Notes under the pieces: model-generated
Seen by the model: the letters and a program-made list of their open reading frames with translations, nothing else
What the model was told of the DNA's origin: nothing
Database searches by the model: none
Shown here: positions 9,235 to 63,340 of the stretch, one piece after another
Layout of the letters: each line of letters starts with the position of its first letter
Numbering within the stretch: the first letter of the stretch is position 1
Made by a program: the position numbers and the translations under genes
NCBI GenBank assembly: GCA_035873375.1
Contig: JAYWMQ010000058.1
Span: 1-64,000, forward strand
Direction: 5' to 3'
From: Nitrospirota bacterium
GTDB lineage: Bacteria > Nitrospirota > Thermodesulfovibrionia > Thermodesulfovibrionales > JdFR-85
DNA length: 64,000 bases

Positions 9235-9280
9235 GGTTTACCCAATTAACTTCTACCAGGATATTCAGGCAGAATTATGA

Positions 9281-9313
9281 AACCGGTTACATAGTTTGTG
9301 AAGCCGGTTATGC
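9281..9313 (+). promoter_or_regulatory. Upstream activating element A
   Basis: Two direct copies of CCGGTTA, 21 bp apart, enclose a CATAGTTTGTG dyad-like core (9290-9300). The identical 11-mer occurs upstream of pilV (50745-50755), at almost the same distance from its sigma54 promoter. This suggests a binding site for a shared enhancer-binding protein. Confidence 0.6.
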
Positions 9314-9343
9314 AATTTTCTTCTGTCTCAAAATAAAAGCACC

Positions 9344-9380
9344 TGAAATACAAGGAAAATTTTATAGGCATTGATCTTGC
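9344..9380 (+). promoter_or_regulatory. Sigma54 (-24/-12) promoter A with TGAAATACAAG block
   Basis: AGGCATTGATCTTGCTT has GG at 9367-9368 and GC at 9379-9380 with exactly 10 bp between, fitting the sigma54 consensus TGGCAC-N5-TTGCW. A block TGAAATACAAG (9344-9354) lies 12 bp upstream of the GG, as at the other three sigma54 promoters here. Predicted start is near 9392, giving a roughly 200-nt AT-rich leader before the TPR gene. No riboswitch is recognised in that leader. Confidence 0.75.
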
Positions 9381-9593
9381 TTTATTAAAAGTTTAAGATT
9401 AAAAAAAATCAATAAATTAAAAGTTTTTTAAGATAAATAATTGGAAGAGTCCCTAATGGATACCGGGCTGATAAAGTAATATCTGACAAATAATTCCTCG
9501 CTTTATTTTGCTTTCAATATCATATCCGGTGTCCCGGCATCCTGATATACAGGGCTTACTCTATAAATATAAATTAAGAAAGAAGGAGCTGGG

Positions 9594-10889
9594 TTGCTGA
9601 TGAGGTATTTATGCATAGCATTAGTATTTATATTCCTTTCTACAGTGTCACCACTTTATGCCGGGTCAGAAGATTACGAGTTATATATTGCACAGGGTAT
9701 CCAGAAGATAAATCAGGGGAAAACGAAGGATGCTATCGTGTTACTCAGGAAAGCACTGAAATTAACGCCGGAAAGTCCGGAAGCCGCTTATTACGCAGGA
9801 GTTGCCTATTCAATAAATGGTAACTATAAAGAGGCGGAGAGCCTGTTTTTACAGACACTTCAACTGGATGAGACATCCGCAAATGCATATCTCGAACTTG
9901 GCCGTATCTATTATGTCACATCGAGATGTGACGATTTGGAAGAGCTTCTTTCAAAATTTATAGACCGTTCAAAAGACAAGGCCTTAAAAGGGGAGGCAGC
10001 TGAATTAGTGGATGGTTGCAGGAATAAGGCTGAAGAGAAACCATACAGGCTTGATATTTCTGCAGGCACTCAGTATGACAGCAACGTAATACTTGAGCCC
10101 TCCAACCCCCCTGTCAGTGCGGAGAGAAAGTCGGACACCAGGGCTGTGTTATATGTAACGTCCGGAGCCGTTCTCTTAAAAGACAGGGTCATAAAGCTGA
10201 CGCTGGATTATAACTTCTACCAGAGTCTTCACATGAACCTGAATGAATTCAATGTGCAGTACCATAAAATCACGCCTGTCTTAGAGATGACTTTTTCCGA
10301 TGCACTCAGGTCTTCAGTGGGATACTCCCTGGAGTATACGCTCCTTGGCAGTGACCTATACAGCAGATTCCATACCTTTTACGGCAAGTTTACCGTGAAA
10401 GAGAGTGAGAAGCTCTCAACAGAGGCAATATATGAATACAGGAGTCTTAAGTACTGGGACGGCGATATATTTCAGACCAATTCCATACGCACAGGATATC
10501 AAAACACCGTGGGTATAAAGCAGAATTTTTATTTAAACCGGCTATCAGGGGAGATATATTACTTTAGTGATTTTAACAGGGCAAAAGAGGGCTACTGGGC
10601 TTTTGACGGACAGAGGTTAGGTGCTGAACTTGCCTATAAGATAACACCTCATCTGCATATTAATGTTTCAGGTGAATACAATGAGAGGCGGTACCATGAT
10701 GACTTCCCGGGCTTTCAGGAGAAACGGTTGGACAGGATGCAGCAATACTCTCTAAGGCTGATATACTTCATTTCTGAGAGGATGAGTGCCTCTGTAACAG
10801 AGAGCTATACTGTTAATGATTCGAATATTGCTCTTTTTAATTACAAGAGGAATATAACAGGGATATTCTTAACAATAGATGTATTGTGA
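9594..10889 (+). CDS. Secreted TPR protein with outer-membrane beta-barrel-like C-terminus
   Basis: A 431-aa exported protein. A signal peptide (about 1-23, ending near LYAGS) is followed by about three TPR units (residues about 25-140, e.g. GKTKDAIVLLRKALKLTPE and NYKEAESLFLQTLQLD). Residues 150-431 are a series of alternating amphipathic strands ending in an aromatic/hydrophobic strand, typical of an outer-membrane barrel. The TPR-plus-barrel layout resembles SLAM/YaiO-like proteins, but no family is certain. TTG 9594 has best spacing from AAGGAG; ATG 9600 is an alternative start. It is first gene after sigma54 promoter A and overlaps the FecR frame. A surface export or display role is inferred. 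Confidence 0.75.
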   Translation: MLMRYLCIALVFIFLSTVSPLYAGSEDYELYIAQGIQKINQGKTKDAIVLLRKALKLTPESPEAAYYAGVAYSINGNYKEAESLFLQTLQLDETSANAYLELGRIYYVTSRCDDLEELLSKFIDRSKDKALKGEAAELVDGCRNKAEEKPYRLDISAGTQYDSNVILEPSNPPVSAERKSDTRAVLYVTSGAVLLKDRVIKLTLDYNFYQSLHMNLNEFNVQYHKITPVLEMTFSDALRSSVGYSLEYTLLGSDLYSRFHTFYGKFTVKESEKLSTEAIYEYRSLKYWDGDIFQTNSIRTGYQNTVGIKQNFYLNRLSGEIYYFSDFNRAKEGYWAFDGQRLGAELAYKITPHLHINVSGEYNERRYHDDFPGFQEKRLDRMQQYSLRLIYFISERMSASVTESYTVNDSNIALFNYKRNITGIFLTIDVL

Positions 10890-10897
10890 GGTGTATT

Positions 10898-11689
10898 ATG
10901 AAAAAATATGGACTGGTAATGCTCATTTGTCTTGCCTTGATTCTCATTGTCACATCAAAATCATATTCCGGGATATCTGATACAGATGATGATACAGAGG
11001 CGGGACAGGTCTTGACGGTAAAAGGTAGCGTGTATCTGGTAAGGAATGCTCAAAAGAACAACGCAGAGCCACAGATGCAGCTTTTACTCAAAGATACAGT
11101 TGTAACAGACAGGGGGGCAAGGACAAAACTCTTTTTTATGGATGACAGTATCCTCAATCTTGGCGAGTTAAGCAGGGTTGAGGTCAAAGAATATTTATAT
11201 ACTCCGGAGAAGAAGAGATCAAGGTCTGTGTACAGGCTGATTAGCGGTTCTCTGAGGATGGTAGTGGGGAGGTCGGATCTTGAGATTCATACACCGACTG
11301 CAGTGGCAGCCGCAAGGGGGACGAAATTTATAGTATGGGTTGAAGGCAGCGGAGATAACATGTTTACAGGAATAATAACCCTTGAGTCTGAGGTTGTAGT
11401 AAAGAATATCGTTAAGGGCATAGCTGGAGAGGTTACGGTAAAGAGTGGTCAGATGAGCCGTGTTTACATGGATAAGCCACCAGAGGCAGCACAACCGATT
11501 GATATCGGAATAATGAGACAATTAAGTGACCAGACCATGGTTTTAGGAAATACAATAAAGGGTCCTGACAGATTGCCCGAGGGAATACCGATGCAATTTA
11601 CTGAGGGTTTATACATGTTTCAGCCACCGGTGTCTCAGGAACCGGTAGAGACGTCTGTTCCGGTAACCATAAATGTAATCTTTCCATAG
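10898..11689 (+). CDS. FecR-domain periplasmic protein
   Basis: About 263 aa, with an N-terminal signal peptide (LVMLICLALILIVTSKSYS) followed by a FecR domain: GQVLTVKGSVYLVRN, SVYRLISGSLRMVVG and the hallmark TPTAVAAARGTKF. FecR domains relay or scaffold envelope signals, but here there is no adjacent sigma/FecI or TonB receptor. The ATG at 10898 has a GAGG site; a GTG at 10886 overlaps the previous stop. It is the second gene of the sigma54-driven operon. Its C-terminus is Pro/Glu-rich and unassigned. Confidence 0.85.
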   Translation: MKKYGLVMLICLALILIVTSKSYSGISDTDDDTEAGQVLTVKGSVYLVRNAQKNNAEPQMQLLLKDTVVTDRGARTKLFFMDDSILNLGELSRVEVKEYLYTPEKKRSRSVYRLISGSLRMVVGRSDLEIHTPTAVAAARGTKFIVWVEGSGDNMFTGIITLESEVVVKNIVKGIAGEVTVKSGQMSRVYMDKPPEAAQPIDIGIMRQLSDQTMVLGNTIKGPDRLPEGIPMQFTEGLYMFQPPVSQEPVETSVPVTINVIFP

Positions 11690-11700
11690 GAGTGAAAATT

Positions 11701-13371
11701 ATGAAATATACGCTATACATAAGCCTGATTGTTTTAACCCTGATGGGTGCTTCCTGTGGAGGCGGCAGTGACGGCGTGCTCAGCTCAGACAGTACAACCG
11801 TGGTGATCGGACTTGGTCAGCAGGCAACTGAAAGAGATGCAGCTCCTGCCCAGGTAATTCCTTCCGCAGTAAGCTACGTGAAATTTTATATCTCCGGATC
11901 CGGAATGAGTCCCATAGAACGCACGATAAGCGTTACCGGAAGCAACACTATCGAAGAGGTATTTCAGGTTCCAAATGGCCAAAACAGGCATTTTACCGTC
12001 TTTGCCTATGATGATGCCAATACCCTGCTCTACTATGGCGATACTCATAAAACCCTCCTGGGAGTCCCGACAACGGTAACCGTGACAATGGTTTCCGTGG
12101 CAGAGCAAATACCGCCAACTTTTGGAGGAGTTGATACAGCGACAGTCGTTTCGAGCACGGAGATAGACCTGACATGGACGGCAGCCACAGACGATGTAAC
12201 GCCTTCAGCAAACATAGTCTATCTGATATACATATCAACAACACCGGGGGGGCAGGACTTTCTGGTGCCGCCGAACTTTACCACAGCAGCCGGTGCTACC
12301 ACTTATTCGGTAACAGGACTTAGTTCCTCAACAACCTATTACTTTGTAGTGAGGGCCAGGGATGAGGCAGGCAATGTGGATACAAACACCGTGGAAATGT
12401 CAGCTATCACCCTTGATGCAATACCACCAACCTTTGGAGGAGCTGATACAGCAGCGGTCGTTTCGAGCACGGAGATTGACCTTACATGGACAGCAGCCAC
12501 AGACGATGTAACACTACAGTCAAACATAGTCTATCTGGTATACATGTCAACAACACCCGGAGGAGAAAACTTCCTGGTGCCTCCAAGCTTTACCACAGCA
12601 GCAGGTGCTACCGCATATACGGTAACCGGACTTAATCCCTCAACAACCTATTACTTTGTAGTGAGGGCCAGGGATGAGGCAGGCAATGTGGATACAAACA
12701 CCGTGGAGGTCTCAGCCACTACCTTGACACCAACGGATGCAACACCTCCAACCTTTGGAGGAGCTGGGTCAGCCACAACCGTATCAAGCAGCCAGATAGA
12801 CCTGACATGGACGGCAGCTACAGACAATGTAACACTACAGTCAAACATAGTCTATCTGGTATATATATCAACAACACCGGGGGGAGAGAACTTCCTGACG
12901 CCGAACTATACCACTGCAGCCGGAGCTACTTCTTTCTCGGTAACAGGACTTACCACCTCGACGACCTACTACTTTGTGGTGAGGGCAAAGGATGAGGCAG
13001 GTAACGTGGATACCAACACCGTAGAGGTCTCAGCCACTACACTTGATGCAATTCCTCCAACCTTCGGCGGTGTTGAGACAGCCACCACAATTTCAAGCAG
13101 CCAGGTAGACCTGACATGGACGGCAGCCACAGACAATGTAACGCCTTCAGCGAACATAGTCTATCTGATATACATATCAACAACATCCGGGGGACAGGAT
13201 TTCCTGCTTCCGCCGAGCTATACCACGGCTGCCGGAGCTACCACTTACTCGGTAACAGGACTTACATCCTCAACAACCTACTACTTTGTGGTGAGGGCAA
13301 AGGATGAGGCAGGCAACGTAGAGACCAACACCGTGGAGGTTTCAGCTACCACCCTGTCTTCAAGGCATTAA
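11701..13371 (+). CDS. Lipoprotein with four fibronectin type III repeats
   Basis: A lipoprotein by its signal: hydrophobic stretch, then LMGASC with Cys as the acylation site, then a Gly-rich linker. After an N-terminal domain of about 120 residues come four FN3 repeats of 103-107 aa. Each begins PPTFGG and contains SSTEIDLTWTAATD or variants, TTYYFVVRA(R/K)DEAGN and NTVEVSATTL. Repeats are nearly identical at DNA level, indicating recent duplication. Such repeats act as spacers or adhesive modules on cell surfaces. ATG 11701 has GGAG at optimal distance. It is third in the sigma54 operon. Confidence 0.85.
   Translation: MKYTLYISLIVLTLMGASCGGGSDGVLSSDSTTVVIGLGQQATERDAAPAQVIPSAVSYVKFYISGSGMSPIERTISVTGSNTIEEVFQVPNGQNRHFTVFAYDDANTLLYYGDTHKTLLGVPTTVTVTMVSVAEQIPPTFGGVDTATVVSSTEIDLTWTAATDDVTPSANIVYLIYISTTPGGQDFLVPPNFTTAAGATTYSVTGLSSSTTYYFVVRARDEAGNVDTNTVEMSAITLDAIPPTFGGADTAAVVSSTEIDLTWTAATDDVTLQSNIVYLVYMSTTPGGENFLVPPSFTTAAGATAYTVTGLNPSTTYYFVVRARDEAGNVDTNTVEVSATTLTPTDATPPTFGGAGSATTVSSSQIDLTWTAATDNVTLQSNIVYLVYISTTPGGENFLTPNYTTAAGATSFSVTGLTTSTTYYFVVRAKDEAGNVDTNTVEVSATTLDAIPPTFGGVETATTISSSQVDLTWTAATDNVTPSANIVYLIYISTTSGGQDFLLPPSYTTAAGATTYSVTGLTSSTTYYFVVRAKDEAGNVETNTVEVSATTLSSRH
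12109..13371 (+). repeat. Four tandem FN3-encoding repeats (309-321 bp units)
   Basis: Units begin near 12109, 12421, 12742 and 13051, each encoding one FN3 domain. They share long blocks of identical codons. Unit 2 has a short TPTDA insertion at its end and unit 3 lacks two residues, so copy number could change by recombination in frame. Confidence 0.85.
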
Positions 13372-13446: not shown

Positions 13447-14907
13447 ATGACTGACGGTATTACAGTCCGCATACTCGGTGACTTTGGCCCCTTTTCCAGC
13501 ATGGGGAAAAGCATCACTTATCAGATAACGATCGGGCGGTCTATTTATCTTATAGACTGCGGTGCACCGTTGTTTCAACAAATCGGAAGTCAAGGGCTTA
13601 AAGAGATAAAGGGTCTTATAATTACTCACTGCCATGACGACCACAAGCGGTGGTTTACTGATCTTGCCCTCTTTAATATGTATGCACCGGATATCAGCAA
13701 CAAGATTTTCTTCCTTACATCAGAGGATATTCATAATGAACTTATCAGGTCATCAGGCCCGGCACTGGACAGAAGCCTTTCAAATGATTCGAAAAATATA
13801 ATAGATATTGCCTGCGAGGAATACACTGATTTCAGGATAGTGGGGCCACGTGCAAAATACAGAATAGTCTCCGTAGATGAAGGTGACGGGAAAACAGCTC
13901 TTTGTATAATTGACAGGAATGGTAATGTTGTTGGTCCTGATATTGCGAAGATTGTTATAAGTAAGAAGACAAAAAGACCGAGGATGCTCTTTAAAGACCC
14001 TGATTACAATGAATGGGTTGAGCCGGAGAGCTTTTATCCATTTTCTTCATCCATATTCTATGAGGAAGACAGAAATATTTACAAAACCCCGGAGGGTTTT
14101 ACCTTTGAAGCTATTAAGTCAGCTGTGTGGCATGGTGTTCCATGTATAGGTATAAAGATTACAACTGATAGTGAGACGCTTATTTTCAGTTCTGATACCG
14201 TTAATGATAGAGAACTGTGGAGGCAACTCTATACCGAGAAGAGGGTTCAGAGGCTTACGATGTCAAGAGAACAATTTGAGTCTGCTGCTGTTATTTTCGG
14301 GGATATAAACGACTATATAGAGCGGATATGGGGTGAGGAACGGTACAAGGCGGCAATCAATGCCTTTAATAATGCCATAGTTATTCATGATATAGCTGCA
14401 AGAAACAGTATAGTCCACACAGACTATGAGAAATTAAAAAATACTTCTCTGAAGAAAGAAAAGGTTATATTAACCCACAGTCTTGACGGAATAACCTCGG
14501 AATGGGTGCTGTGCGATGCAGGAAAGAGTTTTAAGATCAGGGGAGATACTTTCGTTGAGATGGTAGGTGATAAATATTATCCTATGAATGCAGATATTTA
14601 TCACAAGGAAGGCGGGAGATACTTTGTTGGTTACAAGAATGAAGAAGGAAGATATAACGTGTATGAAAAAGGCGGGCTCCTCAGCCTTTCCACGGAGGCA
14701 GTTCCAGATCTTGGCACACTGCTTTACAGGGTTGATATGTATGAGGATATATCAGGGAGGTACTTCCCGAAGCTGGAAGAGGAAAACGTCATGTATCTGG
14801 AGCGGGGAGATGGAAGGGTTGAGCTTATCGAATTTACCGGGGAAGGAAGCAGAGGCAGGATTGTAGAGGACCATCGAGCCAGACTCCCGAAGGGATGCTG
14901 TACATAA
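13447..14907 (+). CDS. Metallo-beta-lactamase-fold hydrolase
   Basis: A 486-aa protein. The N-terminus has the MBL strand pattern ending in LIDCG, then the di-metal motif THCHDDH (HxHxDH) and a later FSSDTV aspartate. Candidate third-shell His residues are in VIHDIAARN and ILTHSLDG. Residues about 340-486 look like an extra sensory or binding domain, with a cyclic-nucleotide-like flavour that I cannot confirm. It overlaps the CHASE2 cyclase gene by 13 bp. MBL-fold class II phosphodiesterases act on cyclic nucleotides, so a paired cyclase/hydrolase role is a reasonable guess but unproven. Confidence 0.75.
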   Translation: MTDGITVRILGDFGPFSSMGKSITYQITIGRSIYLIDCGAPLFQQIGSQGLKEIKGLIITHCHDDHKRWFTDLALFNMYAPDISNKIFFLTSEDIHNELIRSSGPALDRSLSNDSKNIIDIACEEYTDFRIVGPRAKYRIVSVDEGDGKTALCIIDRNGNVVGPDIAKIVISKKTKRPRMLFKDPDYNEWVEPESFYPFSSSIFYEEDRNIYKTPEGFTFEAIKSAVWHGVPCIGIKITTDSETLIFSSDTVNDRELWRQLYTEKRVQRLTMSREQFESAAVIFGDINDYIERIWGEERYKAAINAFNNAIVIHDIAARNSIVHTDYEKLKNTSLKKEKVILTHSLDGITSEWVLCDAGKSFKIRGDTFVEMVGDKYYPMNADIYHKEGGRYFVGYKNEEGRYNVYEKGGLLSLSTEAVPDLGTLLYRVDMYEDISGRYFPKLEEENVMYLERGDGRVELIEFTGEGSRGRIVEDHRARLPKGCCT

Positions 14908-16898
14908 AAACCTTATTCGGGCTACGCAATCCTAAATGGTTCGGGAAGCCAACTGTTTTTATTCCCCTGCTTATAACTCTCGTCTTTGCAGCCCTGACGG
15001 TCAAGAACCCCCCGATTATTGATGAGTATATAGAGACACTCCTCCTGGATTACAGATTTAAGATCAGAAACCTTATCTTGCCTCCTCCGGTTCCATCCGA
15101 TATCGTAATAGTTACCATTGATGAAAAGAGCCTTTCAATCTATGGGAGATGGCCATGGAGCAGGAAGCTGCAGGCAGAGTTGATAGGGAAGGTATTTGAG
15201 GGAAACCCAAAGGCTGTAGTGGTAGATATTTTTTATCCCGAAGCTGGATCTCCCGAATCGGACAGGGCACTTGCAGAAATGATAAGGAAACATAAAGACA
15301 GCCTTGTTATGGCCCTTGGTTTTGAGGTTGAAGAAGGAAAGGTTTTTGATGGTGAGGTAGAGGAGATTCTTTATGACCAGGCAATCACGAGGATTGAAAA
15401 CCTGAAATACCTTCGCTCTGTAGAGGCATACAAGGTACTCCTTCCACCTGAGTCGTTATCCCGTTCTGCAATATTCGGACATGTCTATCCCCTGCCTGAC
15501 AGGGATGGAAAACTGAGATGGGAAAACCTGTATATCAAATATGACGGTGAGTATTTCCCTTCATTGACACTCCAGGCTGCCCGTGTTGCCCTGGGCATTG
15601 CACGGGACAGGGTGTGTATCATAGGTGGTGCAGGGGTTGAACTGGGGGGGAGGTTTATACCCACTGATGAGTTTGGACGGCTTCATATCAACTACATAGG
15701 AAGAGAGGGCAGCATTATCCACAAATCAGCAGCAGATGTCCTTTCAGGGCGTATCCCCGCCTCTTTTTTTACGGGTAAAATTGTATTTATCGGTACCACT
15801 GCCATGGCAACATATGACCAGAAAATTACCCCTTTTTCTGCAAACATGCCGGGTGTTGAAAAGAATGCAACTGTTGTTGCCAATATCCTCAGCGGTAATT
15901 TCATAAAGAAGACCCCGGTTTATATTGATCTGCTTGTGGTTTTGCTGGCTGGTATTCTTGCCCTGTTTATAGGTCAAAAAAAGAGGGCATTATACCTGGT
16001 TGCCGGCTATACGGCGCTGACCTCAATGGTTGTCATTACAAATCAGGTCCTTTTTACCTGGTATGGAATCAGGCTTAATCTGATATACCCCCTCCTTACT
16101 GTCATATCGGAAGGGACTTTTATTATATGTTATGGGTATTTTGTTGAAGAGAAGAAGGCAAGAGAGATCAGAAGGATGTTTTCGAGTTATGTGACCGAGA
16201 GGGTCGTTAATGAACTGATTAAAAACCCTGAACTGGCAAGGCTGGGTGGGGAGAGGAAGGAAGTAACCGTTCTCTTTTCCGATATAATGGGGTTTACAGG
16301 ATTTTCAGAAGGACATGCACCTGAGGAAGTGGTTGCCATGCTTAATGAGTATTTGGGGGCAATGACAGAGGTCATCTTTAAATGGGAGGGGACACTGGAT
16401 AAATTCGTGGGAGATGAAATCGTTGCCTTCTGGGGCGCGCCTTTGGAGCAGAAAGACCATGCGGGGTTAGCAGTCAGGTGTGCGCTTGATATGGTCAGGA
16501 GACTTGAAGAGCTCCAGCGAAAATGGAAGTCTGAAGGCAAACAGGTTCTTGATGCAGGGATAGGGATAAATACAGGAGAAGTGGTAGTTGGAAACATTGG
16601 AGCAGAAGGGAAAAAAATGGACTATACGGTTATCGGTGACCATGTAAACGTTGGTGCAAGGATTGAGACACTTACAAGGAAATATAATACACATATCCTG
16701 ATAACACAATTTACACTGAACAGGATAGGGGAGTTATTGACAACGGATTCTCTCTACCGTACACATACGTCCATAAAGGGGCTGGAGAAGGTGATAGTTA
16801 AGGGCAAGGAACGGCCTGTTGAGATATACGAGGTTAAGTCCCTGATATCAGGGAATGCATTGGAAACAGATGAACGCAAAGAACCTTTATCTTCATAA
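14895..16898 (+). CDS. CHASE2-domain class III adenylate cyclase
   Basis: A 667-aa membrane sensor cyclase. There is an N-terminal helix (about 17-35), a periplasmic CHASE2 domain (about 45-330; DIVIVTIDEKSLSIYGRWPW is typical), three membrane helices (about 350-420), then a class III cyclase domain (about 450-640). Catalytic features: metal Asp in LFSDIMGFT, substrate Lys in GTLDKFVGDEIVAF with the second Asp, and NVGARIE transition-state residues. The Lys points to ATP, making cAMP. It overlaps the MBL gene and its 3-prime end overlaps the convergent HD-GYP gene by 6 bp. Confidence 0.93.
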   Translation: MLYIKTLFGLRNPKWFGKPTVFIPLLITLVFAALTVKNPPIIDEYIETLLLDYRFKIRNLILPPPVPSDIVIVTIDEKSLSIYGRWPWSRKLQAELIGKVFEGNPKAVVVDIFYPEAGSPESDRALAEMIRKHKDSLVMALGFEVEEGKVFDGEVEEILYDQAITRIENLKYLRSVEAYKVLLPPESLSRSAIFGHVYPLPDRDGKLRWENLYIKYDGEYFPSLTLQAARVALGIARDRVCIIGGAGVELGGRFIPTDEFGRLHINYIGREGSIIHKSAADVLSGRIPASFFTGKIVFIGTTAMATYDQKITPFSANMPGVEKNATVVANILSGNFIKKTPVYIDLLVVLLAGILALFIGQKKRALYLVAGYTALTSMVVITNQVLFTWYGIRLNLIYPLLTVISEGTFIICYGYFVEEKKAREIRRMFSSYVTERVVNELIKNPELARLGGERKEVTVLFSDIMGFTGFSEGHAPEEVVAMLNEYLGAMTEVIFKWEGTLDKFVGDEIVAFWGAPLEQKDHAGLAVRCALDMVRRLEELQRKWKSEGKQVLDAGIGINTGEVVVGNIGAEGKKMDYTVIGDHVNVGARIETLTRKYNTHILITQFTLNRIGELLTTDSLYRTHTSIKGLEKVIVKGKERPVEIYEVKSLISGNALETDERKEPLSS

Positions 16899-44435: not shown

Positions 44436-47400
44436 CTACCGAATTCCGCCTCTTTTGAAGCGCTGTATATAGTTGTAAGGCTTAATCGGAGCGTCAAGTT
44501 CAAACTCTTTAATCTCGCCTGTTGACGTCTGTGCAAAACCTTTAATGGTACCTTTTTTGGTTATCATTCCAACTATGCTCGACGGTGCGCCCCTGCCTAT
44601 GTCCTTTCTCCTGTCAACAGTGGGCTTGCCGGTTCCCTTGTCTTCCACAAATACATGACTTCTGAAGGCGGTTCCTGTCTCATAATATACAACGTAAACA
44701 TTGCTCTCTCCTTCAGGAGAACACAGATTGGTGTCAGGCAGGTAAGTTGCCCAGGCAACGAGACCTCCCATGACCAGGGGTTTTACAAAGTTCCTCTCTC
44801 CGGAGATCGGGAAGTCTATATACCACCCATCGGATGAGTTAATTTTACTGATTAGTTCCGTCCAGTTGGAAGCACCTGAAACCCCTGCTATGGTGCCGCC
44901 TCCTACAGAGACAACAGCACTGCTTACATTGAGCAGGTTTCCCAGGGAGACAGTATCGGTACATGAGTAATTGTCGGAGATCCAGGGTTTACAGATGTCC
45001 TTTATTCCGTAAAAAGCCTGCTGGTCGGTGTTTTCCTTGTCTGACTGGTCAAGGAATTTGCCGGTGCCGAAGAATACCCACAGGTTGCCGTCTCCATCCA
45101 GTGATGCAGAGGGTGAAGCTGTCACAGGTCTACCCGGGTTATAAAGTGTTGAGAGGTTCCAGGTAGCGGGATCCGAGCTATTTTGTGTTACCAGCCTTAA
45201 CATCTTCCCCTGCCACGCGTTTCCCTGTTCATATGCCGTGCCGATATAAACCACGTCGGAAGTTTGATCGTTGTTTACATCTACTGAAATGGCGTCTGCC
45301 ATAAAGGAATTGTTATTCCCTGAAGGGATTTTTTTCCAGTAGTTGTTTGAGAGATTCCAGTCGGAAACCACGCCGTATGTCCCTGTTAAATCAAGGATAT
45401 AGACTGAGCCTTTGGTGCTGCGGGAACATTTGACATTTGTTGTCGGCCCCGAGCCGAAGACGGTGAACCATTTATCAGCGCCTACTTTCACGATAGCGGG
45501 ATAGACGGAAGTAAAGCCGAGGTTGTCATCGGTGAACGTCCACAGGAGCGTTGGTTCCTTTTCAGGGTCAGTGATATCCAGCGCAAAATATGTTGACCTG
45601 AAGGTCCTGTTTTCCGTGCCTGATCCAAAATCGTCTGTTACACATATAGGCTTGCCTCCATATCGCATTCCGCCTATAAGGATTGTACCCCATCCGCCGG
45701 GATGGGCATCGTCAGTAGGGTCAAAAATCCTGACATCGGCAATCCTTGGTTTCAGATCCACGTAATAGACATGAGTATAGTCAGGATCAGTGAGCCACTT
45801 TAGCTGGGGCAGCAGGTCCCTTGGGATAAATGACCATAGTTCTTCGCCAAGATTGTAAGTGCCTGATGAGCATTCCGAATCGCTGATGATTCCGTCGCTG
45901 TTGCCGTCACCACCAATACAGAATTTATTGATATTCTCACCGGCGTCGTTTTGCAGGTCATAAAACCCTCCGTTAAACGCATGGAGCATACCGTCATTGG
46001 CACCTGCATAGACAACCGTCCTCCGGTTATAGTATTTATTCCTGAATGCTGCATATGTATTGTCATAAATATAAAACTTCTCGTTGGGCCGTGCCACACT
46101 TGTAGGTGTAGAATAGATTATATCCCCTAACTTCCACGTTGCGGTGTTCCCGTCAATGGTGCGTGTCCGTGACCTGTATCCGTCAGGATGGCCGGAGTCG
46201 GTTACGCCGTTGAGGTCGTCTCCACGTATCCAGTTGATAATATTTTCTGCCTCTGTGTTGTCTGCCGCCCTCAGGAACGGCCTTAGGGTGGAGGCGTTGG
46301 ATGCAGAGAAGCCGTTTGTAAGGAGTGTTGAGCCGTCCTCTGTGGTGTAGATTTTCCTGTCAGCAGGGTCTCTTTCAAAGAGAAGCATTCCCGCCTCCCA
46401 CAACGGGGTTATATCATTAAACTCTATAGAGTCAACTTTCAGGTCGTTGGTGCAGGTATCGGTATTGATCCTGCCGTCACCATCCGAGTCAATGCAGTCA
46501 AAAAAGCCGTTTTCATCTGCATCGCTAAACCGGTCTACCATAACCTTCTTTTCTGTCTCATTAAACCATGTCCGTATTATTAAATCTGTTCCGAGATCAA
46601 GGCTCTTGTTTCCATTCGTATCTTCTCTCAGATTTCCATAAGCATCAATCGATAACCCCTGTAGATAGCCAAGCCACTTTACCTCATTGAGTCCCTCCAT
46701 CTTTGATGGATAGAAATAAGCCTGGTAAACCGCACCTTCACCTTCGCCTGTTGTTGTAAGCACGCTTACCGCAGTTCCTGAAAGGACGCGGCTAAGTATA
46801 CCGGTGAGTGCATTAATAAGGGCATTTTCAAGGGCATATCCTTCCTGGGCCTCAAAATAATTGTCAGGGTCTCCATCTCCGTTTTTGTCATACTCCTCGG
46901 GAATATCCGGGAGGAAGTTTCCGTTCAGGTCTTCGAACCCGCCGTTTTTTGCCGCCTGTTTCAGAAGCTGGCGGCCGTCAGGGGATCCCCCGCTGAAGGC
47001 TGCATATACGAAATATGATGTAATATACTGGTCTCCTTCCAGGTCGGGTCTCAGATCCCTGTACTTACCGTTTGAGACATCAGTACGGCCCCAGAGGGCA
47101 ATGTCGTCTATGTAGTGTGAACCCTTTGATGACCAGAAATAATCCGGCCCGGCCCACGGGGGTACCGGGGCTGATCCGTCTGTATAGTCCGGATAATATC
47201 CCTCTATTCCTGATGGTAACATCAAGTCATATGTCGGCTCTCCATCTGTAATAACAAGGACAAAACTCTTTGCACACCAGACATAATCTGCCTGTGCACC
47301 TGTTCCCGTGCCAAAATTAAACGGGTCTGCAGTAGCGCCCACTCTGTATGACTTGCTGTTGGATGTATAATATCTCGGGCCGGTATCACCGGTTGTGCTG

Positions 47401-48287
47401 TCCTGGGCAAAATACCCTGTTGCGGTCCAGAGCGCCTCGGCCAAGGGCGTCCATGTGCTTGGACGCTCATTCTCTATGGCAGTGATCATGCTGCTTGGAA
47501 GACCGTCATCGATCTCGGTCTTTATGCGTCCGCCCTGCGAGGTGTTAAAGAACTCAAGTCCCCACCTCACCTTGTCCTGCAGTGTTTGTAAAACCCCGAG
47601 GGGCTCGTCGGACAGATGTACCTTGACATTAAATACATAGCCGTTAGTGACCAGTTTACTGTAAGAGCAATCTCCGTCGGAGGGGCCGACCCCGAATTTT
47701 GAAACACTGCTTGACCCCCGGTTGAACCTGAAACATCTCTCCCCGCCGTAGGGAGTATAATCCCCGGCATCGCTGTACCGTTTCAGGTATCCCCTGCCAT
47801 CATAATCAGCCTGTTCACTAAAGAGGTCGTGGGGGTTTCCCTGTCCTGACCTTGAAACGGCCTTTCCCCCTACAAGAACCTTTCTGGCAATATCGACTCT
47901 TCTCATTGTGAGCCAGTTCAGGAAATTACCGTCCCACTCACTTGATGTCTTTACACGGTCTGATTTGTTTCCTGTCTCATCGAACCTTGAGTTTTGATAC
48001 GTGTACCATTTTTCAGGATTGAAATAACCGTAATAGGCTGTTCCCGGGACGAAACCTTCGCTGACATCAGAGCCGTTGAAGTCATAGGCAAAGAAGAACA
48101 TGGAGCCGGAGTTGTCGAGCAGGATAAGCACGTTGGGTTTCACAACACTTCCAATAAACGGCGGATAGGAAGTGTAGTCGCCAGGGGTCGGGACAGTGCA
48201 GGATGCTGAGAATGCCTGCCCCTGAAAAACCATAAGGCTCATTATCGAGACTGAAATCGCAAGCCATATTTTATTTAAATATTTCAT
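44436..48287 (-). CDS. pilY1: PilY1-like type IV pilus tip adhesin, copy 1
   Basis: A 1283-aa exported protein. Signal peptide (about 1-28), then a von Willebrand-like region with MIDAS-type D58-N-S-G-S-M, Ca-binding DxDxDG-type loops (DKNGDGDPD, DADENGFFD, DSDGDGRIN), and the PilY1/PilC C-terminal propeller (about 720-1280) with a calcium loop DVNNDQTSD corresponding to the P. aeruginosa regulatory site. It should cap or retract-regulate the pilus. It is last in the pilVWX-orf94-pilY1 operon. It is the most divergent of the three copies, with a proper DxSGS and far more Asp-rich loops. Confidence 0.93.
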   Translation of the reverse strand: MKYLNKIWLAISVSIMSLMVFQGQAFSASCTVPTPGDYTSYPPFIGSVVKPNVLILLDNSGSMFFFAYDFNGSDVSEGFVPGTAYYGYFNPEKWYTYQNSRFDETGNKSDRVKTSSEWDGNFLNWLTMRRVDIARKVLVGGKAVSRSGQGNPHDLFSEQADYDGRGYLKRYSDAGDYTPYGGERCFRFNRGSSSVSKFGVGPSDGDCSYSKLVTNGYVFNVKVHLSDEPLGVLQTLQDKVRWGLEFFNTSQGGRIKTEIDDGLPSSMITAIENERPSTWTPLAEALWTATGYFAQDSTTGDTGPRYYTSNSKSYRVGATADPFNFGTGTGAQADYVWCAKSFVLVITDGEPTYDLMLPSGIEGYYPDYTDGSAPVPPWAGPDYFWSSKGSHYIDDIALWGRTDVSNGKYRDLRPDLEGDQYITSYFVYAAFSGGSPDGRQLLKQAAKNGGFEDLNGNFLPDIPEEYDKNGDGDPDNYFEAQEGYALENALINALTGILSRVLSGTAVSVLTTTGEGEGAVYQAYFYPSKMEGLNEVKWLGYLQGLSIDAYGNLREDTNGNKSLDLGTDLIIRTWFNETEKKVMVDRFSDADENGFFDCIDSDGDGRINTDTCTNDLKVDSIEFNDITPLWEAGMLLFERDPADRKIYTTEDGSTLLTNGFSASNASTLRPFLRAADNTEAENIINWIRGDDLNGVTDSGHPDGYRSRTRTIDGNTATWKLGDIIYSTPTSVARPNEKFYIYDNTYAAFRNKYYNRRTVVYAGANDGMLHAFNGGFYDLQNDAGENINKFCIGGDGNSDGIISDSECSSGTYNLGEELWSFIPRDLLPQLKWLTDPDYTHVYYVDLKPRIADVRIFDPTDDAHPGGWGTILIGGMRYGGKPICVTDDFGSGTENRTFRSTYFALDITDPEKEPTLLWTFTDDNLGFTSVYPAIVKVGADKWFTVFGSGPTTNVKCSRSTKGSVYILDLTGTYGVVSDWNLSNNYWKKIPSGNNNSFMADAISVDVNNDQTSDVVYIGTAYEQGNAWQGKMLRLVTQNSSDPATWNLSTLYNPGRPVTASPSASLDGDGNLWVFFGTGKFLDQSDKENTDQQAFYGIKDICKPWISDNYSCTDTVSLGNLLNVSSAVVSVGGGTIAGVSGASNWTELISKINSSDGWYIDFPISGERNFVKPLVMGGLVAWATYLPDTNLCSPEGESNVYVVYYETGTAFRSHVFVEDKGTGKPTVDRRKDIGRGAPSSIVGMITKKGTIKGFAQTSTGEIKEFELDAPIKPYNYIQRFKRGGIR

Positions 48288-48288
48288 G

Positions 48289-48573
48289 TCAGTTCCTCAC
48301 AACCATTGCCTTAATTTCTGCGGCACATGTATCTTTTAAAGTGACCGTTACTGTTTCAACAGCAATCAGGCCATCCGTACTTGCCTCTTCCTCCGCATCA
48401 ATGGATTCGGATATTTTGTAATCGTCGCAGAGTTCGATCTTTTTACCATCTACAACTATAAAATCCTTTCCATATCCTGACAGATTGCCTGTTATGGTCT
48501 CCTCTCCCATGGCAGGGGAGAAGGTTATAAACAGGATTAAAAACATGGTTGTTATCACGAGTAATTTTTTCAT
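48289..48573 (-). CDS. Small exported protein between pilX and pilY1
   Basis: A 94-aa protein with a signal peptide (about 1-23, ending AMGEE) and a mature part that is beta-rich and acidic: GNLSGYGKDFIVVDGKKIEL, with two Cys (CDDYKIS and DTCAAEIK) that could form a disulfide. No family recognised. It starts 18 bp after pilX and ends 1 bp before pilY1 in the same transcript, so a periplasmic accessory of PilY1 or pilus tip assembly is inferred from position only. Confidence 0.7.
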   Translation of the reverse strand: MKKLLVITTMFLILFITFSPAMGEETITGNLSGYGKDFIVVDGKKIELCDDYKISESIDAEEEASTDGLIAVETVTVTLKDTCAAEIKAMVVRN

Positions 48574-48591
48574 GGTCCCTCCTCTTGGATG

Positions 48592-49137
48592 TTAATCACA
48601 CCAACCTACGAGGAAATACACTGCACCGACTCTGGTTTCAGAGCCTGATGCTCCCCTGCTTGTTGCGTTAATTATGTAGTTCTTTCTTACAATCGGTGGT
48701 CCCCCTTCTTCGAGTGCATAACCAGGACCTGGGTCACCAGCACTGACATAATCAACATCAACACTGACATTATTATTGCCTCCTATACTAACCGGAAAAT
48801 TTTCAGTGTCGGGATTCAGTTGAGATACGCAGTTTCTTTCAGCCCTTAAGTCCTGCATTCTGTCACTCAGCTCAGCCTGTGGAATATCTGTGAATTCAAG
48901 ATTATCGGTATTTCTCAATATCGGCTCAGTCAGCTCTATCCCTGAATCAGCAGCAGAGAGGCCAATCTCCCTGAGCCTCGTGTTCCCTGCAATCATGACT
49001 TCTGTCGTGGATGTCGAGATTGCCAGAATCCCGATAGCTGTTAAAGCCAGTAGGGAAAGAAGGGAGATGATCAGGATGAACCCATCTGCTCCCTTAAATG
49101 TATCACTTGAGGTTATGTTCCTCTGTCTATTTTTCAT
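48592..49137 (-). CDS. pilX: PilX-like minor pilin (cluster III)
   Basis: About 181 aa from ATG 49137, which overlaps the pilW stop. After a basic leader comes ADG|FILIISLLSLLALTAIGIL: a type III prepilin-like helix lacking Glu at +5, as in PilX. STSTTEVMIAGNTRL and AADSGIE are the usual PilX neck motifs. It forms part of the PilVWX-Y1 priming complex. Confidence 0.87.
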   Translation of the reverse strand: MKNRQRNITSSDTFKGADGFILIISLLSLLALTAIGILAISTSTTEVMIAGNTRLREIGLSAADSGIELTEPILRNTDNLEFTDIPQAELSDRMQDLRAERNCVSQLNPDTENFPVSIGGNNNVSVDVDYVSAGDPGPGYALEEGGPPIVRKNYIINATSRGASGSETRVGAVYFLVGWCD

Positions 49138-50054
49138 TACAGGTTCCTCACAGCAACTTCCATCTGCCACCATCTCCTTCTCAGAGCGTCATTGGTGGCA
49201 GGCAGGTTACGGTTTTCTATTGTTTGGGGCGGGTTGCCCAGTCCCTGAAAATTCGGGTCAGGCCGTGCTGTTGATGCAAGGATATTTACCCTGACCGTAT
49301 TACTATTCACCAAAGCAAATTGCAGATCTTCAATGTTTTGAGCAATTATATCAATGTCAGGGTCAGGATCGTTTAATCTCCTGACCCTCTGTAATTCGTT
49401 TCCGACTACCCGATAGGTGTAGTCCTCAATCAGGTAAACAGGCACTCCCTCGCCGTCGTCACAGTTGCCGTTAGCGTTTAAGTCAGTATACAACGGGAAG
49501 GATTCGCCTACACGGTCCTGTAATTGTATCCTGAACTCTGCACCGCCACCTGAAGTAACTATTCCGTACCTGATACCTGCTATACTGATGTTCCTCTTGT
49601 CAGTGGTGTTTATATTATCCAGCCCCTCACTGCCTTCAGGCGGTACGAGTCTGAGGGTGGTATCATCCGGGCTTATGGCATTACCATTGCCATTGCTGCA
49701 TAAGGTCCCGGCTTTTCTGAAGGCTCCTATCAAGGTAATCTGATCAGGGGCGCTGGCATTATCTGTAAGGGTAAGCACCTGTGTGAAGCCGTTTATGTTG
49801 AATGCCCCGTTTTCCAGCAGGCCAAAGCCTGTCTCTCTGAGGTCGTTGGCAATTATGTTGAGAGATATCCTGGATGTAGAGTTCAACTCAGTGACCTGGT
49901 CCTGTGCAGTAAAGGAACGCTGCTGGGATATATATGACGAATATATAGCGCCTGTTATTATCAGGCTGATGACTATAACGACCAGCAGTTCAACAAGTGA
50001 ATAGCCGTTTTGTCCCGTGCACTCAGATTGTTTTTTATGGTGTTGCTGTTTCAT
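49137..50054 (-). CDS. pilW: PilW-like minor pilin (cluster III)
   Basis: About 305 aa. Prepilin cleavage NG|YSLVELLVVIVIS has Glu at +5 and an unusual Tyr at +1. SYISQQRSFTAQDQV is the PilW neck. ATG 50054 has GGAG 9 nt upstream; ATG 50069 is an alternative. It overlaps pilV and pilX. Minor pilin of the tip complex with PilV, PilX and PilY1. Confidence 0.9.
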   Translation of the reverse strand: MKQQHHKKQSECTGQNGYSLVELLVVIVISLIITGAIYSSYISQQRSFTAQDQVTELNSTSRISLNIIANDLRETGFGLLENGAFNINGFTQVLTLTDNASAPDQITLIGAFRKAGTLCSNGNGNAISPDDTTLRLVPPEGSEGLDNINTTDKRNISIAGIRYGIVTSGGGAEFRIQLQDRVGESFPLYTDLNANGNCDDGEGVPVYLIEDYTYRVVGNELQRVRRLNDPDPDIDIIAQNIEDLQFALVNSNTVRVNILASTARPDPNFQGLGNPPQTIENRNLPATNDALRRRWWQMEVAVRNL

Positions 50055-50619
50055 CCCATTTAACTCCATTTAGTGTGACTGTATGATTGCTGCCGTTTTT
50101 GTCGGTCCAGCATACCCTGACTGCAAGTGCCTTTACATTGTTCATCCCGGCACCGCCGGCACACGCGCCCGGAGGGGCAGGGGTACAGAGAAGTGCAGTG
50201 GGAATCGGGTCGTTTATGTCCACGCTCCTGCAATCATCCTCAACCCACCATATCCTGGTAAAAGTCATTCCTCCTGCTCTTGTTACAGGGTCGTAGTCAG
50301 CGTCTCCTGAACCTACAGGGTTCTGCAGGATTGTGTCGTCTTCCGGTGTCGGATGAGTGCCGGCCACAAATATGCTGTTGACGGTACCTGTATCGTCTCT
50401 GACAGGAGTAGACCGCATCTTTTCCAATAATTCCTGGCCCAATTCCGATGCAATCTGTGTCTCTCTTCCGAATGCATTGCCTGCCACTGCCATATACTGC
50501 ATCATGGCAACGCTTGTCAGGCCGACTGTCAGGATTACAATCGCCACAAGGACCTCAATAAGGGTAACCCCTTTTTTGTTTGTGATTGGTGATGAATATG
50601 AATTAAATTGTTTTTCCAT
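50035..50619 (-). CDS. pilV: PilV-like minor pilin (cluster III)
   Basis: A 194-aa prepilin: leader ending KKG|VTLIEVLVAIVILTVGL with Glu at +5. It has a short C-terminal globular domain with several Cys. It is first gene of cluster III, about 35 nt downstream of the predicted start of sigma54 promoter B; only a weak GAGA-type ribosome binding site is visible. Confidence 0.9.
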   Translation of the reverse strand: MEKQFNSYSSPITNKKGVTLIEVLVAIVILTVGLTSVAMMQYMAVAGNAFGRETQIASELGQELLEKMRSTPVRDDTGTVNSIFVAGTHPTPEDDTILQNPVGSGDADYDPVTRAGGMTFTRIWWVEDDCRSVDINDPIPTALLCTPAPPGACAGGAGMNNVKALAVRVCWTDKNGSNHTVTLNGVKWDETATP

Positions 50620-50665
50620 CGTTTTCTCTATATGCGTGTGAGCTATGTTTACAGTAGGCGGAGTT

Positions 50666-50701
50666 GCAAAATCAATACCAAAATAAATTTACTTGTTTTT
50701 C
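50666..50701 (-). promoter_or_regulatory. Sigma54 promoter B (pilVWX-pilY1, cluster III)
   Basis: Minus-strand TGGTATTGATTTTGCA: GG and GC separated by exactly 10 bp (complement at 50678-50679 and 50666-50667). GAAAAACAAG (50692-50701) is 12 bp upstream of the GG, as in the other copies. Predicted start near 50654. Confidence 0.78.
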
Positions 50702-50730
50702 GGGGGGTTTGTTGTTGCAGCAAAAAGAAT

Positions 50731-50766
50731 TATGGAATCTGATTCATAGTTTGTGTAAACGGTTGT
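50731..50766 (-). promoter_or_regulatory. Upstream activating element B
   Basis: Contains CATAGTTTGTG (50745-50755 on the plus strand), identical to element A, plus matching flanks. The dyad CAYA-N3-TRTG makes it readable in both directions. It lies 66 bp upstream of the -24 box, as element A does (67 bp). Confidence 0.6.
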
Positions 50767-50768
50767 CA

Positions 50769-50804: not shown

Positions 50805-50835
50805 TTTTCCCCGTCTTCCCGGATATGGATTAAGC

Positions 50836-53800
50836 TTATTTTTCCTGACAGGTACCTGTTTTAAAGCCTACGATACCGCTCTGTAATGAAAAGGGCGCTT
50901 TTATTTCGATTCCAGGGATATTTCCCAATGAGGTCTGGGCAAGCGCTTTGAGTGAACCACCCCTTGTAACCATTGCGCTGACACTTGCAAAACCCTCTCC
51001 GAGTTGTTGTTCCCTTCCAACAGTGGCAGGTTCAGTCGCTATCTCGTCTGTAAAGACATAGTCCTTATAGGCTGTGCCTGTTTCGTAATAGACGGCCCAG
51101 AGGTATCCATTTCCCTGGCTATCACTGCAGAGGTCTTCTTCCGGTATGTATGAGGTGAAGATGACGAGGCCTCCGAGTACAACAGGTTTTGCGAATGAAC
51201 GCTCACCTTTGAGACTTTCATGTCCCGCAACAGAGGGGAAGTTTATGACCCAGCCGTTCTTCGTGTTTATAGCATGTAAGAGGTCACACCATTCAATAGC
51301 GGTTGTATCACCACACGTACTGCCTGAAATTGTTGTCCCAGTTGCAGTGATATTTGTAGCGCCAACATCGACTGTTACACCGGATACATCAAGGAGGTTT
51401 GTTTCTGAGACAGCAGCGGTGCAAGCGTAATCCTTCCAGGGCTGGCATATCTCTTTTATGCCGTAAAATGCCTGGGCATCATTGCTTAACTTGTCATCGG
51501 AGCCAATGAACTTGCCGGCTCCGAAAAAGACCCACATATTTCCTTTTTTATCGAGTGCTACGGATGGCGCGGATGTTATCGGCTTATAACCGGAGGTGGA
51601 GATAAGGGTTGAAAGTTTCCACTCATTGAAGACATCGGTGCTGTTCTTTGTAACAAGCCTGTACATGTTGCCGCTGAGCTGATTATATCCCGTCCCTGCA
51701 TCATAAGCCTCTCCTATATATCCAACATCGACCTTGTAATCAAGGTTGACGTCAACGGTGATGGGGTCTGTCATAAAGGCATTGCCGACACCTGTGTCAA
51801 AGGACTTCAAAAGGCTGCCGGTCTTAAGATCAACTACAAAGACCTTGCCTGTCTGGTCACTGCTTACATTGGAGCCTGCATCAAACTCAGTGGGGCCGGA
51901 GCCGACAATCATGACCCACAGATCTTTAGTATCGGTATTCACCCTTGCAACTGCCGGGTATGACATGGTAAGCCCGAGTCCCAGATCAGGGACACCATCA
52001 GCGTCTGAATCCTGGTCTGTAAAAGTCCAGAGGAGTTTTGGAGGGACCTCGGGGTTAGTTATATCAAGGGCAAAGTAGGCAGAGTAAAATGTTTCGTTGG
52101 TTCCGTTAATATCAGCGCTGATTTGTTTGCCCCCGAGTCTCATCCCTCCTATGAGTATGGTACCCCATCCAGAAGGATGTAATACATTAGACTGTCCATT
52201 AATGCAGTCTGCACTGGAATTGGTAGCATCGCAGAATATCCGGATATCGGTAACCTTGGGCTTCAGATCAACATAGTAGACATGGGTGTAGTTGGGATTT
52301 GTAAGCCATTTAAGGTGAGGAAGTAGCTGTTTTGGTATAAATCCCCAGAGTTCATCCCCGAGGGCGAGTTCCTTGCCGATAGGAGGGTATGTCCCGCCGT
52401 TTTCGTACTGGCCGGTAGCTGCGTTGTATTTGCCTCCGTTAAAGGCATGGAGCATTCCGTCATTGGCGCCGACATAGACAACATTCCTCCTGTCTTTATA
52501 TGTTCGATAAAAGCCTGTGTAAGAGATGTCCCTGTAAAGCCTGTCGTAGTTTTCGCCGGGCAAGCCGACAGGTGTCGGTGATGAGTAAATGATGTCCCCT
52601 AATTTCCAGACCTTTCCGTTAATAGTCCTTGGCCTGTATCCGGGTATATCTTCGCCCTGAATGTATTTGATTATATTTGTGGCCTCTGCACTGTTTGCTG
52701 CTCTGAGATAATCATCCAGGCCATTGCCGTCCTTGAACTCAATGAGGCTCAATCCGTCTGTAGTGGTGTATATTAAACGGGGCAGGGTTGAAAGTTCCCT
52801 TTCCCGGAGTTTCTCCCCGGCCTCCCATAACGGGGTGTCCGAAACATTGCCATCAGTATCCACCTCCAATGCCTGCAAATAACCTATCCAGTCCCTTTTA
52901 CCTTCAGGAAATGTCTTTTCAGGATAAAAATATGCCTGATAAACAATATTCCCCTCTCCGTTCCTCGAACCTGCAAGAGCGGGTGCAGTGCCTGATGCTG
53001 TTTGTTCGATAATTTTAAACAGCGCCTTTATCAGGGCTGCCTCAAGTTCATCTCCTGTTTTCGCTGCATAGAAATTGTCGTCAAAATCATCATTGTTAGT
53101 GTTGTACTCACTGGTCTGATCAGGCTCATTGTTGCTGTTCGAATCTATAAATCCGCCGTTCCTTGCCGCTCCGCCACCACCGCTTGAATAATCATTGGGA
53201 GAGGTGCCTGTACCGGAAGACCAGTTCAGTAGTCTTCTGCCATCAGGTGTGTTACTGCCAAAAGTTGCATATATAAAATAATGTGTGAGATATTGTCTTT
53301 CATTGTCAACAACGGCACTACCATCGGGATTCGTCTTATCACTGAGGTTTCTGAGGTCATTGGTATGACCATAGTAGGCAACATTGTCAATGTAATGTGA
53401 TCCTTCGAGGTCCTGGTCCCAGAAATAGTTGAGAAGGGCACCGTCTACAGTGGTAGTTGTGTCTGCCCAGTCTGGTATTCCGGTTGATTTTTCATTAGCC
53501 GGACTATCGGCATAGGCTGAACCATAGCTTCTTAGTGCAGATGGAATTTCCAGGTCAGCAGTCGGTTCTCCATCTGTGATAGTAATGACAAAGCAACTGG
53601 CGCAGGGGACCCATCTTGTATCAGCAGCCGGATCAAGTGCATAGTTGAATGGATCGGTTTCATCGCTTACAGTATAGGACCCGGAAGAATTTGAAGTATA
53701 TCGAGGCCCAGTACTGCCGGTGGTGCTGTCCTGAGCGAAGTATCCGGTTGCCGTCCAGAGTGATTCGGCAAGAGGTGTTGAGGGAGCTGAAGGACTGTTT

Positions 53801-54887: not shown

Positions 54888-54939
54888 GTGTTGTCCCTTT
54901 GGTGAACTCTTAAGTTTTTTTAATGTTACTGGTTATAAA

Positions 54940-54976
54940 GCAATATCAATGCCTGAATTTTTTTGCTTATATTTCA
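54940..54976 (-). promoter_or_regulatory. Sigma54 promoter C (pilY1 copy 2)
   Basis: Minus-strand AGGCATTGATATTGCTTT: GG and GC 10 bp apart (54952-54953, 54940-54941). TGAAATATAAG (54966-54976) is 12 bp further upstream. Nearly identical to promoter A over about 40 bp. Predicted start near 54928, leader of about 150 nt. Confidence 0.8.
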
Positions 54977-55017
54977 GGATGTTGCAGGAAGGGTATATCC
55001 TTGGCAGAAAAAAATAT

Positions 55018-55056
55018 GTAATCAGCTTCACAGATTGTGGAAGCAACTACCATAGA
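55018..55056 (-). promoter_or_regulatory. Upstream activating element C
   Basis: Core dyad CACAGATTGTG (55029-55039) is a perfect CACA-N3-TGTG, matching elements A and B with substitutions in the spacer. It lies 76 bp upstream of the -24 box, one helical turn further than A and B. Confidence 0.5.
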
Positions 55057-56200: not shown

Positions 56201-56214
56201 CTTTAGTACGGTAA

Positions 56215-60239: not shown

Positions 60240-60254
60240 TTAACTTACCCCCTT

Positions 60255-60830: not shown

Positions 60831-60883
60831 CGTTTACCTCCTTTATGGTTCTTTTTCGTTATTAATCCTGTTTCCCTGTTCTA

Positions 60884-63140: not shown

Positions 63141-63240
63141 CCTCCCATCTCCCTGTTATGTTTCAACATCAATTGAGCAATTCCTTAACAGTACATTTTT
63201 ATTGTGTTAGATTTTTTCCTTAATTTTTTTTAATATAGCA

Positions 63241-63276
63241 GCAAAAAGAGTGCCCAAAAATTTTTCTTATATTTCA
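63241..63276 (-). promoter_or_regulatory. Sigma54 promoter D (fimT-pilVWX-pilY1, cluster I)
   Basis: Minus-strand GGGCACTCTTTTTGCTG: the last GG of the triplet and GC are 10 bp apart (63253-63254, 63241-63242), with a perfect GGCAC. TGAAATATAAG (63266-63276) is 11 bp upstream. It is the best -24 match of the four. Predicted start near 63229. Confidence 0.82.
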
Positions 63277-63299: not shown

Positions 63300-63340
63300 A
63301 GTCACTATGTAATTTGTTTCCTATCTTGGGTGACTGACTA
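63300..63340 (-). promoter_or_regulatory. Possible upstream element D
   Basis: AGTCAC and GTGACT form an inverted pair around TATGTAATTTGTTTCC, located where elements A-C lie. It shares only a weak TATG/TTTG resemblance with them. Confidence 0.25.

Follow-up and report, generated by a model that had tools for sequence, protein, structure and literature searches.

The window, i.e. the whole stretch of 64,000 nucleotides analysed here, is part of a 2.67-Mb genome (99% complete; G000) of an uncultured Nitrospirota bacterium and carries a plus-strand operon of five genes as well as a minus-strand pilus region (44436–63140), in which three PilY1 paralogues and two minor-pilin operons lie within 19 kb, with an Ig-domain protein (55137–56045) in between. 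The first operon gene encodes a TPR domain followed by an outer-membrane beta-barrel; its AlphaFold model (pLDDT 88) shows TPR helices at 21–144 and 14 strands at 149–427 and matches OmpG and BcsC (9b8a) in Foldseek. It is followed by genes for a FecR-domain protein, a four-FN3 protein, a metallo-beta-lactamase (MBL)-fold protein and a CHASE2-linked class III adenylate cyclase (Table 1). The five genes overlap or sit at most 75 bp apart, which fits a single transcript. The initial annotation had named the TPR barrel, FecR and FN3 proteins, all three of which are encoded; however, the MBL-fold protein and the cyclase were not listed there, and the adenylate cyclase is the most interesting and most telling product of the operon. 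It carries D463, K503, D507, T578, N585 and R589, i.e. the metal Asp pair, the Lys/Thr substrate pair, the Asn and the Arg are all there. The catalytic residues are also found in the orthologues, and PDB matches were class III cyclases including CyaB (3r5g). Because all catalytic residues are kept, the protein is probably an active adenylate cyclase. For the MBL-fold protein, PDB sequence matches were only weak (E 0.003–0.005; structure model pLDDT 37) and of one kind, Apyc1-type hydrolases, which we take to be cyclic-nucleotide phosphodiesterases. We regard the protein as a weak candidate for such an enzyme, and since the matches are weak and of Apyc1 type only, this role is a lead and nothing further. 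Five cNMP-binding proteins are encoded in the genome. Convergent with the cyclase gene lies a gene for a GAF-HD-GYP protein (16893–17984, minus strand), a likely c-di-GMP phosphodiesterase, which is also present in the congener G001; HD-GYP relatives occur near the operon in other genera as well.

Table 1. Predicted features of the five-gene operon, its control region and the pilus units of the window
Feature	Position	Strand	Basis or remark
Upper dyad of enhancer, TATGAAACCGGTTACATA	9276..9293	+	direct reading; kept in congeners
Enhancer, 32-bp unit GGTTACATAGTTTGTGAAGCCGGTTATGCAAT, including lower dyad TGTGAAGCCGGTTATGCA (9297–9314)	9285..9316	+	in all 18 promoters
Upstream element CCTGAAATACAAGGAAA	9342..9358	+	about −51 to −35, just 5′ of core
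Sigma54 −24/−12 core AGGCATTGATCTTGCT, GG-N10-GC	9366..9381	+	start of transcription expected near 9392
TPR domain and 14-strand outer-membrane beta-barrel, predicted signal sequence	9600..10889	+	Pfam TPR, BBP2_2
FecR-domain protein, probably periplasmic	10886..11689	+	PF04773, E=4.5e-11
Four-FN3 protein, probable lipoprotein (non-ideal lipobox MGASC)	11692..13371	+	PF00041, four stretches
Metallo-beta-lactamase-fold protein, HCHDDH motif	13447..14907	+	PF00753; motif conserved
CHASE2 sensor and class III adenylate cyclase	14895..16898	+	PF05226, PF00211
Minor-pilin operon 2: two N-methyl pilin-like proteins, PilX, PilY1	44436..50619	−	Pfam
Upstream element and sigma54 core, minor-pilin operon 2	50665..50702	−	pattern search
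Enhancer (UAS) of minor-pilin operon 2	50729..50760	−	enhancer pattern, 0 mismatches
Lone PilY1	50836..54774	−	PF05567
Upstream element and sigma54 core, lone pilY1	54939..54976	−	pattern search
Enhancer (UAS) of lone pilY1 promoter, GCTTCCACAATCTGTGAAGCTGATTACATATT	55013..55044	−	enhancer pattern
Minor-pilin operon 1: GspH/FimU-like, two N-methyl pilin-like proteins, PilX, PilY1	56265..63140	−	Pfam
Upstream element and sigma54 core, minor-pilin operon 1, spacer 1 nt shorter	63240..63276	−	pattern search
Enhancer (UAS) of minor-pilin operon 1, weaker match	63304..63335	−	enhancer alignment

In front of the operon, a pilus-type sigma54 promoter had been described in the initial annotation as almost identical over about 40 bp to the promoter of the lone pilY1 gene. 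Both sites are present, ∼45 kb apart on opposite strands: positions 9344–9380 (+) read TGAAATACAAGGAAAATTTTATAGGCATTGATCTTGC and positions 54940–54976 (−) read TGAAATATAAGCAAAAAAATTCAGGCATTGATATTGC. They are alike in 29 of 37 positions (78%), a similarity far above chance. However, 'almost identical' is slightly strong, because the identity is concentrated in two near-identical blocks, TGAAATAYAAG and AGGCATTGATNTTGC, separated by AT-rich sequence that is free to vary. Of the two, the latter is a sigma54 core (GG-N10-GC); at the operon it is intergenic, lies 228 bp ahead of the TPR gene and is TGGCAC-N5-TTGC-like with GG and GC 10 nt apart. The corresponding sigma factor gene, rpoN, is encoded on contig C6 (PF04552, E=5.1e-62), a different contig from that of the operon. 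With core and upstream element both recurring at pilus operons and rpoN encoded, the assignment to a pilus-type sigma54 promoter holds. We predict from the sequence that the site comprises two parts, sigma54 core and upstream element, of a complete promoter of the enhancer-dependent kind. A simple scan of 9200–9700 revealed no sigma70-like promoter on the plus strand. Also, no RNA family was found in an Rfam search of the window at gathering scores, so the leaders contain no known riboswitch at this threshold.

Scanning of the window yielded two further sites of like build, located before the minor-pilin operons that start at 50619 and 63140; neither these sites nor the enhancer described below (9276–9316 at the operon) had been noted in the initial annotation. 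When the whole genome was searched with the 37-bp pattern at up to 3 mismatches, we obtained 9344–9380 and 54940–54976 (0 mismatches), 50666–50702 (2 mismatches) and two chance-like matches (3 mismatches); the reversed-pattern control gave 0 matches. The fourth promoter, at 63241–63276, was found with a pattern whose spacer is 1 nt shorter. Beyond these four promoters, the 2.67-Mb genome contains no copy with 2 or fewer mismatches. All four are intergenic and located 61–228 bp 5′ of a start codon. Elsewhere in the genome, at C25:26368, a sigma54-type core with a similar upstream element and no enhancer precedes the gene of a 609-aa protein starting MCGIVGYIG, and a sigma54 activator gene lies ∼1.2 kb away. 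Furthermore, a near-consensus sigma54 core, TGGCACCATTCTTGCT, is found at C3:64587, 37 bp before a 295-aa gene with an LpxC-like start.

A third shared element was found by aligning the operon upstream regions of six genomes of the genus: a block of ∼32 bp above the core (consensus GGTTACATAATCTGTGAAGCAGATTACATAAT) that stands above every pilus promoter and is common to all 18 promoters. At the operon promoter, the dyads TATGAAACCGGTTACATA and TGTGAAGCCGGTTATGCA are 21 bp apart, i.e. two helical turns. The enhancer starts either 79–83 or 90–92 bp before the core in the 18 promoters, two classes that differ by about one helical turn. The helical phase expected of a UAS at a sigma54 promoter was thereby found across the 18 promoters, with a phase concentration of R=0.85 and a p-value (2e-5) that is not strict since the promoters are related and not independent. 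Position, tandem layout and phasing of the dyads are those of sigma54-activator enhancer sites. Used alone on its own genome, the enhancer pattern gave three matches at 2 or fewer mismatches, all of them in the regulon proposed below; chance-type matches appeared only at 3 mismatches and the reversed control gave 0. A PWM made from the pil promoters only scored the operon enhancer at 21.3; the strongest background score within the window was 9.6. In the congener G005, the enhancer of the operon promoter (upstream of the TPR gene on G005:C34) contains a perfect 16-bp palindrome, GTGTAACCGGTTACAC. We also considered the upstream element as an IHF site (WATCAANNNNTTR between enhancer and core) and rejected this, the best matches being at shuffle level in all 18 promoters.

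Since TGTGA-N6-TTACA resembles the CRP site TGTGA-N6-TCACA, with the lower dyad before the lone pilY1 gene agreeing with CRP half-sites in 9/10 positions, the enhancer could alternatively be bound by a CRP-type cAMP receptor, through which the cyclase would exert feedback on the pilus operons as well as on the operon that encodes it. An operon-encoded adenylate cyclase and the set of cNMP-binding proteins would suit such a circuit. However, direct activation of sigma54 polymerase is not known for CRP, TGT-N10-ACA is equally a NifA-type site, and dyads at a distance of 21 bp in phase with the GG-N10-GC core fit a sigma54 activator; we consider control by CRP unlikely.

Profile R2 was built from 12 pilus promoters of this genus and of G010, with every operon promoter left out, and run on 23 genomes. 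In its own genome it returned the three pilus promoters together with the operon promoter (E=2.1e-15), and the next match followed at 5e-4, i.e. the four sites stand apart from the other matches in this genome by ∼11 orders of magnitude in E. The operon promoters of the congeners G002, G004, G003 and G005 were found at E values of 2.6e-15, 9.6e-14, 9.9e-12 and 1.6e-10, respectively. For the operon promoter of G001 the value was 0.14; here enhancer and upstream element have decayed and the core alone is clear. The profile also gave two new strong matches outside the training set, one in G003, ahead of gspH in operon 1, and one in G004. A genome with further sigma54-like promoters, the one at C25:26368 included, could in principle offer another account, in which the operon has an ordinary sigma54 promoter that resembles those of the pilus genes through the common consensus. 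This is hardly credible, as it is already contradicted by the enhancer match: enhancer and upstream element are common to the sites too, and the separation by the profile is equally against it.

Orthologues of the TPR gene occur in all five congeners, with identities of 64–89%; the orthologue in G010 has 56% and those across the order have ∼30–37%. BMS3Bbin07 and SZUA-77 (Nitrospirae) are named genomes related to ours. The order TPR, FecR, FN3, (MBL), CHASE2-cyclase is widely kept, in part, across the order. The pairing of promoter and operon, suggested in the initial annotation as a check in related genomes, is present in all six genomes of the genus: a sigma54 core lies 5′ of the TPR gene in 6/6 (our genome and G001–G005), even where the leader has diverged. 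In G001 and G005 a different gene lies upstream of the operon and the core is still there, closer to the sigma54 consensus (CGGCACCGATCTTGC). The pilus operons of these genomes carry the same tripartite region, and in G004 this promoter type is also found at an additional, diverged PilY1-type gene. However, the pairing does not extend to G010 and the more distant genera examined, which keep the operon without a pilus-type promoter upstream; the pilus locus of G010 carries the full promoter. Just before the TPR gene of G010 and of some others we noted −35/−10-like sequences (read by eye). The promoter link belongs to this genus and does not characterize the operon in general, and the simplest reading of the comparison would be that the pilus-type promoter was gained or swapped in here. 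A pilus control region that was copied before the operon and has no present function, the similarity being residual, would be in line with the high similarity of the operon and pilY1 sites within one genome and with sister genera that are devoid of the promoter. We judge this very unlikely: six species, diverged to as little as 64% protein identity, have retained the promoter through changes in the leader and the upstream gene, and the cores of G001 and G005 are nearer to the sigma54 consensus, not decayed.

From these comparisons, shared control of four units, namely the two minor-pilin/PilY1 operons, the lone pilY1 and the five-gene envelope operon, is strongly supported. The operon had been linked to T4P surface biology in the initial annotation. 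Because the pairing occurs in 6/6 genomes and the same tripartite region is found at the pilus operons, the regulatory link to T4P tip genes is well supported; it is right and stronger than had been stated, although it applies to the genus only and 'surface biology' is drawn from co-regulation alone. The common control region suggests that the cAMP module and the pilus tips are made together. Our preferred reading, to which we assign a probability of roughly 0.7, is that one sigma54 activator, likeliest PilR, co-induces the pilus-tip operons and an envelope-sensing cAMP module. In the proposed mechanism an activated enhancer-binding protein would bind, on one helix face, the TRTGAA-N6-TTACAYA dyads arranged in tandem between about −85 and −110 and contact sigma54-RNA polymerase at the GG-N10-GC core, whereby pilus-tip proteins and operon products would be made together. 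This activator would most likely be PilR, phosphorylated by PilS. Barrel, FecR and FN3 proteins may act as a sensor from the outer membrane to the periplasm, the state of which would be read by the CHASE2 domain; we infer the coupling of barrel, FecR and CHASE2 from gene order. cAMP would then be produced when pilus tips are built and could act via one or more of the five cNMP-binding proteins. We likewise infer that the operon may have a physical or signalling link to pili.

Our choice of PilR as the activator goes by gene neighbourhood only. The genome contains 15 full sigma54-activator genes, none of them on the contig of the operon. PilR is encoded on contig C30 in a pilB-pilT-pilC-pilS-pilR cluster (6TM_PilS kinase and sigma54 activator domains) and, with pilus genes as its prospective targets, is the obvious candidate. 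In a pilR mutant of P. aeruginosa the minor-pilin genes and pilY1 change, a class that was related to PilA loss (PMC6058289). The published hallmark of PilR sites is TGT-N11-AGA plus GTCT elements (PMC6058289); the enhancer has TGT-N10-ACA-type dyads, no clear GTCT elements and no clear match to this hallmark. We found no pilA promoter that carries this enhancer, NCBIfam models did not distinguish PilR from the other activators, and no activator gene adjoins the pilus operons in the pilus loci examined. We name PilR tentatively, at somewhat less than even odds. In G008, which belongs to another genus of the same family, a related promoter (G008:C113:4061–4164, E=1.1e-7) is flanked by a sigma54 activator gene on one side and a STAS plus methyl-accepting-type gene pair on the other. 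Because this promoter adjoins an activator gene, the promoter type may be regulated by a protein other than PilR. The same regulon would then be served by one of the other 14 activators and respond to another signal (e.g. redox, nutrients), with pilus tips as one output among surface proteins. The nearest homologue of the G008 protein in our genome is encoded on C3 (44.6%; HTH region 46%). However, the C3 protein has its own 71% orthologue in G008, which makes the G008 gene a paralogue, and this route does not name the activator. The target genes, moreover, are nearly all pilus genes, which speaks against this alternative; an activator other than PilR is nevertheless a real possibility, if one that we do not favor.

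The reading of a sigma54 activator, likeliest PilR, that joins pilus tips and a cAMP module bears on a subject, the transcriptional control of pilus-tip genes outside Proteobacteria, that is little known. No function for the widespread TPR-barrel/FecR/CHASE2-cyclase operon was found in the literature, and our literature search returned no paper linking FecR/CHASE2/TPR operons to pili; the shared lineage-specific enhancer gives the operon a testable role. With an operon spread across an order and the promoter in one genus only, the locus is also a clean case of regulon recruitment.

Among known systems, magnetotactic bacteria carry a gene pair of mtxA and a CHASE2-adenylate cyclase, and deletion of mtxA gave no visible phenotype (PMC4439547). 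A TPR-containing exported protein adjoining a CHASE2 adenylate cyclase is common to both cases; MtxA, however, combines TPR with an Ig-like domain, with no 14-strand barrel reported and no pilus-type promoter described (PMC4439547). BcsC-type exporters likewise have a periplasmic TPR domain ahead of a beta-barrel (Foldseek 9b8a), whereas the operon protein has a shorter TPR array and 14 strands (OmpG-like), and the operon contains no polysaccharide synthase. The PilS-PilR/RpoN control of pilin in Pseudomonas, Geobacter and Dichelobacter has in common with our regulon the sigma54 core, upstream activator sites, pilus targets and the pilB-pilT-pilC-pilS-pilR cluster; the targets here, however, are minor-pilin/PilY1 operons and the cyclase operon. 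In P. aeruginosa, the type IV pilus signals surface contact through CyaB and cAMP, and the cyclase has a functional connection to pili and PilY1. The operon cyclase resembles CyaB (3r5g) in its catalytic domain. In contrast to the CyaB route, the proposed tie in our case is shared transcription, and the cyclase comes with a CHASE2 sensor and envelope partner genes. A more far-reaching and rather doubtful possibility is that in this genus a dedicated sigma54 regulon, which arose by promoter capture, joins the pilus tips to an outer-membrane TPR-barrel/FecR/FN3 sensor wired to the CHASE2 cyclase and possibly to a cyclic-nucleotide phosphodiesterase, and would thus provide a pilus-tip-coupled cAMP surface sensing unlike the Chp-CyaB system of Pseudomonas.
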